From NCBI GenBank assembly GCA_029582155.1, contig CM055908.1, forward strand, positions 21,809,103 to 21,873,102: DNA of 64,000 bases. Direction: 5' to 3'. The notes under the pieces were generated by a model. The model saw nothing but the letters and a program-made list of their open reading frames with translations, was not told the DNA's origin and did not search any database. Positions 1-64,000 of this stretch are shown in pieces (positions within the stretch are counted from its first letter, which is position 1; every line of letters begins with the position of its first letter). The DNA is from Panopea generosa. Lineage: Eukaryota; Mollusca; Bivalvia; Adapedonta; Hiatellidae. Made by a program: the position numbers and the translations under genes.

Positions 1-5
1 TTCAG

Positions 6-76
6 ATGGATCTGTGACATTGCACAGCAGTTACTTGTTGTTGACAGACCACATACCCAGATATCAGTCATGGGCT
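6..76 (+). CDS. DNAAF9: exon A1 of DNAAF9-like gene
   Basis: Starts after ttcag and ends before gtaagt. It encodes [20 protein letters not shown] plus SWA. It enters with two bases of a split Asp codon, which the exon at 43098-43255 supplies in contig B. Duplicated at 44818-44888. Confidence 0.85.
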
Positions 77-3000
77 GTAAGTCTTCTTGTTAGTCTTCTG
101 CAAATACAACCATGCAGTGATAAACTCATGGACTTCCACAAGTAGCAAGCAGAACACATTTTAAACAGAATAGTCACATGTAATATGCATAGTCTAACCA
201 TATTACACTTTTGTATCAGATGTTTAAATTCATCATTGTGTGGTCTTTTGTTATTGATTTCATTTATATCCTGGGCCAAGAGGTCCATACAATCTTGTGA
301 TGCCCTACTGGAGCTATGTGAACTTAAACATTTTTAAAGTATTCTCTTTGAAACTCTATGTTAATTATGACTCCAGCATGGTATTTTTGGTAATTTAGAG
401 GCATATAACTGGTCTATGAATGCTCTACAATGGAGTTCCGACCACCAAGTTGCTGCCCTAAATGGATACTAATAATAATTCTAAAATTTAGCAAAAGTAA
501 ATCCATGCTACATGTTTAGTTATACCAGTCCATTCTGATATACCTTTTAGTATACCAGTCTGGAGAATGACAGGAAACTGTTACAAGATAAACTAGAGGA
601 TGACAGTCTATCAGAAAACTTTGGTAAACTGTTGATGTCAGGGGAACCAGTCAACCTGGGATGCAGCAGTACACTGTGCATGCCACCAGAGGAAGGTAAG
701 GTCCTACATTTATCTCACAACATGATATATGAGATTTGTTGATTACTGTTTAGAAGTTATCTGCAACACAGTCACATCCATTAACTAACATTTCTTATAC
801 AAAGTCCAGGGTGTTGTTTTCCTTACACAAGTTATCAAATTTCTTAAGAGTAAATCTTATGTAAAAAAAAAAAGGTTATGAAATTACTTTTTTCATAATC
901 ATCAGTATTGTATATGAATTTAAATATAAGAAAATATAATTCATAATAAAATTATCAGCTGGGCCCGATTAGTTTAGTTGTTAGCGCGTCTGACTATCAA
1001 TCCAGGGGTCGTGAGTTCCAATCCCGCCTGGCAACAGTCTCCGTGATGGTTGATATTCGATATTGTGTCTCATTATCATTCATCTCTCACAGCTGATTCA
1101 AGTGGGAAATGAAAGTTATCAGTTACTGGCAAAGATAGGGTGTGTTCAGGATCCAAGGAAACATTGTTTAGGTTAACTGATCAACTGTTAGCCTTTGATG
1201 GCATGAAAATGAAGCTAAATATTCAATCAATCAATCAATAAAATTATCAGGATGTTAATAATTATTGTTTTCACAACAATGCTAGACTTACGACGGATAG
1301 TGCAATATGTCAACTAAGGTTGTTTGTGATGATGTTCAAATTTTCACCAGCATAAAAGTCTATTCTAAAAATAAACTTTACAAACTTTACAAAAGATCTG
1401 ATTACCCAGAAGTATAAATTAGACTGGTTTGCAGACATCATAAACCACTAATTTATATACAGTTTTAATGTGTTCATTTCTATGCTTGTCTTTAAAATAA
1501 AGTTGTAGTTTTCTCTAAATTCAGTCTCTGCAGATACTTGGCAACATTTGAATCCTGACTTATGTATAGTGAAAAAGGTGATAACGTAGTTGAGTACCAC
1601 AAATCATTATAGTGGTACATATATTGATTTAAACTTATAGTTGTCTTGTTATCTCCCACAATATTACCACAATAAAATCTCCATCTATGCCATTGAGAGT
1701 GATCGTATAAACTGTGGATTTTGTTTTGTAATAAAGTTTGTATGAATTTTCCACATTCTATTTACAGCTAGCCTTTATGCATATGAGAATGGTTTAGTGA
1801 TACTGAGTCCACATTCTGGGGCAATTGTTCTCCATGGTAACTACATCAGGTCTGCCCTCTTTTATGATGGAGTAAGTCTCATAACAATATTATATAAAGA
1901 CAAGACATATAGTTAACAAATGTTATCAGTTCAAAGTCTATTCAATGTAACATTTATGGAAACAATGTCATTTGTTTAATTTGCATGGGCACAGACAAGG
2001 GTGCGGCAAAACTTTTCTCTATTTTTTAGCTAATTTCGCAAACTTTTTTACATTTATTTTGTATGCTGCACCAATAATTTCCCATTTTTTCTTAATTATG
2101 ATTATCTTAAATTCAGACAAAATTTGTACTTGATGTATGTTTTTTTGATTGGTTTCCATTTTATTTTTACAGGATAGCTCTAACACAGTAGCAGTACTAG
2201 ATATAGAGTACCAGCCCACATTTGTACCTTACATTCCATTTCATCTCCAAACGGAACAATGTGAGATAGTTATTTTGTTCACACCAAAATCCAAAGCATA
2301 TAAACGTTTGTACTCTGAGGTTAGTTGAAAATACTATTTTTTCAATTACGGAACAGAAAATATATTTTATTTAACTTATATATAGAGAATACCATGTTAG
2401 TGTCTGATGTTATCAACTTTATCAAGTGAGGCTTTGAAAAAAAAAACAGGATGAGGCTCTGCCGAATCTTTGTTTTTTTTCGTGCCTACCTGATAAAGTT
2501 GATAACATTAGACACTTTCATGGTATACTATTCATCATGTCAATATTTCTAGTTTCTTTTTTTATTCATTTAAGAAGGGTTAAAAGTAGTTCTGTTCAGA
2601 TTAAAATGTATAATCATTTATAATGACGTCATGAAGTATGCATAATGACGTCATATGCCTGATAAACTTGCTATGATGAGATATGTTTATCAGACAGGCA
2701 GTTTAACAATAGAAATTAATGCATTGACATGATAAAAACAGTATCTCGTCGTAACATTCATATATTCAAATTCATTATAACAACATGAAAGGTTCAGACA
2801 TGCAAAAGTGCAATCATGCGTGCATGCCTGCACACGCCAACAATATACAAGCACTCATTTACATATTCAGTCACATGTTAAAAATGGCACCTGATTATAT
2901 ATAAATTTAAATTGCTTTTTATTGTAAATAAGTCACTTTTTTTATTCTACACATTAAGAATATATATATTGTTTCTAGTGGGAGAGGATTATGTGTTTCA

Positions 3001-63069: not shown

Positions 63070-63161
63070 CAAATGGGTGTCATGTTCATTTCATTAGGGA
63101 ACTATAGGTTAACCCTCTGTCCCTTTGACCTGAATCCTGTGATCATTTAAAAGGTATTTAA

Positions 63162-63383
63162 CCCTTTACTCCATAGATATGCATTTTCCTGCATCAATCA
63201 CAGAAAGCCTTTGAAAACAGTGCAGGAAGAGTTCAAATTGCTCGTAATGAGCAATCTGAACACTTCCTGCACTGTTTTCCACTCTGTCAGTTAATATAAA
63301 CATAAGTCACCCATTGCTGATACGTGGTGAATTAATGCTTTCAATTTGGAAGAGTAAAAAAAAAATGCTTATTGAGCAAAGGG
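63162..63383. mobile_element. piggyBac-like MITE 1 (copy B)
   Basis: Duplicate of 18358-18577, with TTAA at 63158-63161 and 63384-63387. Two bases longer through small insertions. Confidence 0.85.
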
Positions 63384-64000
63384 TTAAGCAAGAGCCATGA
63401 AACTTGACATGGTTATAGAGGGCAATAAAGATATTATGCATGTTATTTTAAACTTCTGGTCGTATAAATATTTTTGTTGCAATGGCATTAAAAATGTGAA
63501 AAATCATGCCAATGTGTGGATCCTTTGGTGACTTAGAAGTACTTACGGTATGAAACTTGACATGAAGATAGCAATAAGGGGAATATGCATGTTAGTTTAA
63601 TTCTGAAGTAAGACCAATATTTTGATTGCCATGGGAACAAAAATACAAAAATGTTAAAATGGTGCCAATATCTAGATTGTAAAAGGTACTTATGGTAGAC
63701 TGGTAATAAAAAGCAATTAGGAGATTTTTTTTTTTTTAATTAGCTTTGTGACTCCACCTGTTTAGTCTATTTTAATTATCACAGCACTTTTCATAGTTAA
63801 ACACTATTTCTTAAAAGTGTATATGTATATGATGTAAATATGACATTAGAATAAGTCAATATATACATTTACATAGAGTATACTGGGATATGCTGTCATT
63901 TAATATTATTCCATTTTGGAACGGAGATAATTCCAATGACTGTGCTGGAAATGTATTCTATTTTGCAGATTTGTGGTAATCTGTGACAAAATGTGCTAAC

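Follow-up and report, generated by a model that had tools for sequence, protein, structure and literature searches.

The window analyzed here comprises 64,000 nucleotides of the Panopea generosa assembly (contig CM055908.1, labelled C15 in the following, positions 21,809,103 to 21,873,102 of the forward strand). A scan for N runs found a placeholder of 500 N at 37929..38428, which separates the sequence on the left, referred to as contig A, from that on the right, referred to as contig B. On the plus strand, Pfam DAAF9 domains mark a DNAAF9-like gene. DNAAF9 is the C20orf194/Shulin-type protein, and DAAF9_N has the accession PF23281. Exon positions were obtained from genome-wide six-frame profile searches with PF23281, PF25203 and PF25204. 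PF23281 exons were found at one locus (C15:21711276-21716999), about 92-98 kb to the left of the window. In contig A, PF25203 exons follow at -1705..-1520 (negative coordinates lie left of window base 1) and at 2158..2328 (profile positions 370-427), and four PF25204 exons lie at 20339..20431 (1-31), 23984..24070 (121-149), 25917..26033 (149-187) and 30456..30548 (180-210). DAAF9_N, DAAF9 and DAAF9_2 are thus all found on the plus strand, and their profile order equals the genomic order in contig A. The identification as DNAAF9-like in the first-pass annotation is supported by exons matching all three profiles.

Both PF25203 exons are repeated in contig B. The counterpart of -1705..-1520 lies at 43108..43293 (plus strand, profile positions 222-283), where the surrounding open frame matched Pfam with an E value of 1.7e-8, and that of 2158..2328 lies at 46970..47140 (plus strand, again 370-427). 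Contig B also has four PF25204 exons, the twin of 20339..20431 being located past the window end. No other locus with PF23281, PF25203 or PF25204 exons appeared among the matches of the three six-frame searches, which are non-exhaustive for single exons: they missed parts of DAAF9_2 close to 21.5 and 22.3 kb that a separate Pfam search matched. With five candidate exon pieces as query, a protein search of the PDB gave no match up to E = 1. The Pfam match of the five-piece query covers residues 112-197 and thus essentially pieces 3 and 4; piece 1, piece 5 and the larger part of piece 2 are to be regarded as candidate exons.

The repetition of these exons is part of a much larger direct repeat. 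It had been proposed that bases 1 to about 19190 recur at 44813-64000, and the alignment of 1-19195 with 44813-64000 confirmed this far beyond chance (19,233 columns, 99.55% identity, 3 mismatches, 77 gap openings). To place this match in its surroundings, the window was compared together with 100 kb of sequence on its left and 80 kb on its right, 244 kb in total. The 19-kb match proved to be a section of a longer repeat of 44.3 kb per copy, in which -6385..37928 aligns with 38429..82746 over 44,383 columns at 99.678% identity with 9 mismatches and 124 gap openings. The copy in contig A thus occupies 1..37928 of the window and starts 6,385 bases to the left of it; the copy in contig B occupies 38429..64000 and reaches 82746. 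Contig A stops at 37928, immediately before the gap, and contig B begins at 38429, immediately after it, so that the two contig ends abut the gap as tandem copies and dovetail to the base. Beyond 82746, contig B continues into sequence that has no counterpart in contig A.

Searches of the whole genome agree with this geometry. With window bases 19200-19900 as query, two of 24 matches were full length, one for each copy. An 800-bp query spanning the right end of the overlap matched in full in contig B, and the match at the same locus in contig A covered query bases 1-400 only and stopped at window position 37928 (C15:21847030). The remaining 56 of the 58 matches were partial, 67-90% identical and repeat-like. 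A second full copy of the contig B sequence across the right end of the overlap was not found with this query in the genome search. At the opposite side, the minisatellite flanking the overlap on the left gave one full-length match in the 244 kb, namely itself, in addition to shifted matches inside its own array. This minisatellite (-7940..-6646, shifts of about 63 bp) ends 261 bases before -6385, the point at which contig B starts. It might have aided a break of the assembly graph, though it makes no contact with the boundary.

Within the window alone, contig B seems to open with sequence that is lacking on the left in contig A, and the first-pass annotation consequently considered that contig B belongs before contig A and had been scaffolded in the wrong order. 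In this proposal, 38429-44812 was the unique part of contig B, an additional N-terminal exon was assigned to it and the gene order appeared reversed across the gap. The flanking sequence leads to a different result. Contig A runs free of gaps for at least 100 kb to the left of the window and contains the beginning of contig B at -6385..-1. The segment 38429-44812 only seems unique because the window cuts contig A on its left side. The same truncation explains the apparently reversed gene order, as the exon at 43108-43293 is present in contig A at -1705..-1520. The order A-gap-B is right because the end of contig A overlaps the start of contig B, and contig B passes the end of contig A into sequence for which the right-end query gave no second full copy; merely the merge was missed. 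Of the earlier proposal, an overlap of at least 19 kb stands, with a true extent of 44.3 kb. The wrong scaffold order was rejected on account of the flanks, which show the end of A to be the start of B, and its probability is next to nil.

A real, very young tandem duplication of at least 44.3 kb with a truncated second DNAAF9 copy has to be weighed as well. The copies stand in tandem on one scaffold, and a very recent event would leave almost no substitutions, as is seen here. The break points of such a duplication should, however, be independent of the gap edges, whereas here the repeat would need to end and to start exactly at the edges of an arbitrary 500-N spacer. In addition, indels that are not multiples of three break reading frames reciprocally in the two copies (see below). 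It had also been argued that a real duplication would require the missing first exons to lie inside the gap. This does not apply, as the DAAF9_N exons were found once in the genome-wide search, lie far to the left and are separated from the window by no gap. Judged from the profile matches, contig A alone carries the predicted DNAAF9-like domains from the N- to the C-terminal side without a gap, and the duplication is confined to the part of the predicted gene inside the overlap. With both ends of the repeat adjoining the gap, a real tandem duplication was rejected; we regard it as extremely unlikely.

The nature of the spacer can be derived from the assembly statistics. The stretch 37929-38428 is the sole N run in the window, in line with the single 500-N gap recorded there before, and the only gap in the 244 kb. 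A run of 500 N is the default spacer of 3D-DNA. The appending of 500 Ns is also described in PMC12879420, with the program unnamed in that description. For Panopea generosa, PMC10729735 gives a recipe of Falcon, Arrow, Pilon and Juicer/3D-DNA and reports 2,086 contigs in 39 scaffolds, with totals for scaffolds and contigs that differ by 1,023,500. This difference equals 2,047 x 500, and 2,047 is also the number of contigs minus the number of scaffolds (2,086 - 39); the gaps are therefore placeholders. The size of the 500-N gap is uninformative. The words 'purge' and 'haplotig' do not occur in the main text of PMC10729735, nor is 'false duplication' used in that paper, and among the matches listed in a literature search no paper joined Panopea generosa, genome assembly and false duplication.

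The differences between the two copies are of a narrow kind. In total, 133 events were counted over 44.4 kb, consisting of 9 mismatches (0.02% substitutions) and 124 indels. One-base indels account for 116 of the latter, and 109 of these 116 fall in runs of at least two identical bases as measured in the longer copy; in comparison, 48% of all bases sit in such runs. A 23-bp minisatellite with 112 copies (2,576 bp), located at 6524..9099 in contig A and at 51326..53901 in contig B, shows zero differences. In the four PF25204 intervals of contig A, three are free of differences between the contigs and one contains a single base, at 26030 near the interval end. Judged from the assembly sequence, haplotype-specific variants are lacking, and the differences are of the consensus-error type.

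These numbers bear on the possibility that the first 44 kb of contig B were derived from the other haplotype, either as an uncollapsed haplotig, which had been offered as an explanation before, or as a switched contig. Such heterotype duplications are the commoner class in most assemblies tabulated in PMC9516828. Also in favor of this reading are the published heterozygosity of 1.37% (PMC10729735) and the presence of other near-identical, possibly allelic pairs in the assembly. This heterozygosity predicts about 608 differences for 44.4 kb, a rough yardstick given that heterozygosity is uneven along the genome, against the 9 mismatches and 133 events observed. The substitution rate of 0.02% therefore falls about 68 times below the expectation from the published value instead of matching the divergence between the haplotypes of the individual. 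The identity of all 112 minisatellite units argues in the same direction, as do the reciprocally damaged frames, which are indicative of consensus error.

For comparison, two control pairs were chosen from the search listings by their equal or nearly equal scores. Two copine-exon regions 115 kb apart, C10:61345500-61348000 and C10:61460575-61463075, belong to the family for which PMC10729735 reports an expansion; their alignment of 2,503 columns (96.2% identity) contains 42 mismatches and 8 gap openings. The regions C6:14777000-14780000 and C6:14860363-14863363, 83 kb apart, are 98.3% identical over 3,002 columns with 37 mismatches and 6 gap openings. Both of the pairs examined are dominated by substitutions (1.2-1.7%), in contrast to the locus described here. 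Based on the substitution rate and on the contrast to these two pairs of the same assembly, an origin of the repeat from the other haplotype was rejected and is considered highly improbable. The C10 pair may itself be allele-like, with a haplotig as one possibility, or a young paralogue; the C6 pair, near the heterozygosity of 1.37%, is possibly a haplotig in the primary assembly or again a young paralogue.

Further evidence for consensus errors is provided by reading frames that are damaged reciprocally. On the minus strand of contig A, an open frame of 606 codons extends over a 30-bp tandem array (10732..12549), while the longest minus-strand piece of its counterpart in contig B has 132 codons. 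Contig B is thus, as far as the frames indicate, the error-bearing copy at this position, 17-19 kb from its start. The opposite was found for a non-LTR-type retroelement frame with RVT_1 and RNase H matches in Pfam (27157..30401, minus strand). In contig A it is split into 875 and 219 codons, compared to a single frame of 1,082 codons in contig B (71967-75212), and contig A would be the error-bearing copy there, 8-11 kb from its end. In the best-scoring TRF rows, the arrays 10736-11314 and 11387-12189 show 0% indels in contig A and 3% and 1%, respectively, in contig B. The 34-bp row of the array 15577-15705 shows 2% indels in contig A and 0% in contig B.

The indels show a related trend. In the left part of the overlap (-6385..6907), 9 bases are missing from contig B and none from contig A; in the middle part, 58 are missing from contig A and 50 from contig B; and in the right part (29063 onwards), 6 are missing from contig A and 1 from contig B. 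The comparison of left and right gave p = 0.0009 in Fisher's test, with cut points that were set after the bins had been seen. Free of cut points and with all 124 indels, the bases missing from contig A lie further to the right (Mann-Whitney p = 0.010). Each contig therefore tends towards the worse consensus on its own side of the overlap, as expected if reads entering its unique flank polish that contig.

The surroundings of the 606-codon frame are rich in repeats. Between 4484 and 12244, in less than 8 kb, TRF revealed a dense series of different tandem arrays with units of 40, 23, 22 and 30 bp. The frame itself lies between the DNAAF9-like exons at 2158 and 20339, and its product would consist of a hydrophobic stretch followed by 10-residue repeats of two types. 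Its best Pfam match, Extensin_1, stays under the cut-off (E 8.6e-5, 22.9 bits compared to 105). It could be a nested gene or a mere in-frame array.

Taken together, the repeat is almost certainly a homotype false duplication at a contig boundary, i.e. one locus written twice through an unmerged overlap of contigs. The earlier suggestion of a single locus represented twice is thereby upheld, by the dovetailing of the contigs and by differences of the error type. In the animal, the sequence is most likely present once and would follow contig A to 37928 and then contig B after 82746. Falcon would have ended contig A and started contig B inside a shared 44.3-kb segment of a single haplotype, presumably at a branching step, and the dovetail overlap of both would have been left unmerged. 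3D-DNA would then have set the contigs next to each other, in correct order and orientation, with its fixed 500-N spacer. During polishing, both copies probably competed for the same reads, which may have resulted in distinct residual one-base indels in homopolymers. Two observations count against this reading. The overlap of 44.3 kb exceeds the published subread N50 of 26,513 bp (PMC10729735), whereas duplications of this class are described as often one corrected read long, and the density of indels is highest in the middle of the overlap (108 of 124 at 6.9-29.1 kb) rather than near the contig ends.

Read literally, the scaffold shows a dynein-assembly gene that is partly duplicated in tandem, and about 44.8 kb of false sequence (44.3 kb and 500 N) were added. 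The same class of error elsewhere in the assembly could inflate the counts of recently duplicated genes. Gene-family expansion is announced in the title of PMC10729735, and its text attributes the expansion to tandem duplication. It is conceivable, though on balance doubtful, that unmerged overlaps lie behind a sizeable share of the 2,047 gaps. Gene counts would then be inflated by these overlaps and by allele-like pairs of the C6 and C10 kind, and the published expansion would be non-biological in part, also for some copine genes. On C11, the eight copine matches above 100 bits among the 49 matches listed all differ in score (eight values, 108.4-124.6), a crude sign of real paralogues. Five copine-domain exon matches with an exact spacing of 152 bp, each covering profile positions 108-144, were observed at C11:36016875-36017593; these may represent either a tandem repeat that carries an exon or an array of exons at this site. 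On C7, equal-scoring repeat matches at 32100054 and 30844364, 1.26 Mb apart, each have a further piece nearby, again with equal scores and equal spacing at both sites, and this pair is a candidate for another duplicated segment. Self-alignment of both sides of every 500-N gap would be a cheap test for such overlaps.

The duplication is otherwise an ordinary, well-described artefact. According to the VGP paper, overlaps at contig boundaries give tandem copies with a gap between them, and a homotype example from a hummingbird was blamed on a FALCON bug; homotype boundary duplications are described as often, not always, one corrected read long. False gene gains created by false duplications are reported in PMC9516828. 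Similar to these cases, the clam assembly carries one locus at two dovetailing contig ends, which after scaffolding form tandem copies separated by a gap and differing in consensus quality, and Falcon was used as in the VGP example. The clam overlap differs in its length, 44.3 kb compared to the subread N50 of 26.5 kb, and in its doubling of the C-terminal part of a bivalve gene. Heterotype (haplotig) duplications, as treated in PMC9516828 and PMC8081667, likewise place two nearly identical copies on one scaffold, one on each side of a gap. The clam locus, in contrast, has about 68 times fewer substitutions than heterozygosity predicts, and its differences are mostly homopolymer indels. With recent segmental (tandem) duplications it has two copies in direct orientation in common, whereas both ends of the clam repeat fall on the borders of an artificial gap, and its copies are damaged reciprocally, in the manner of sequencing errors.
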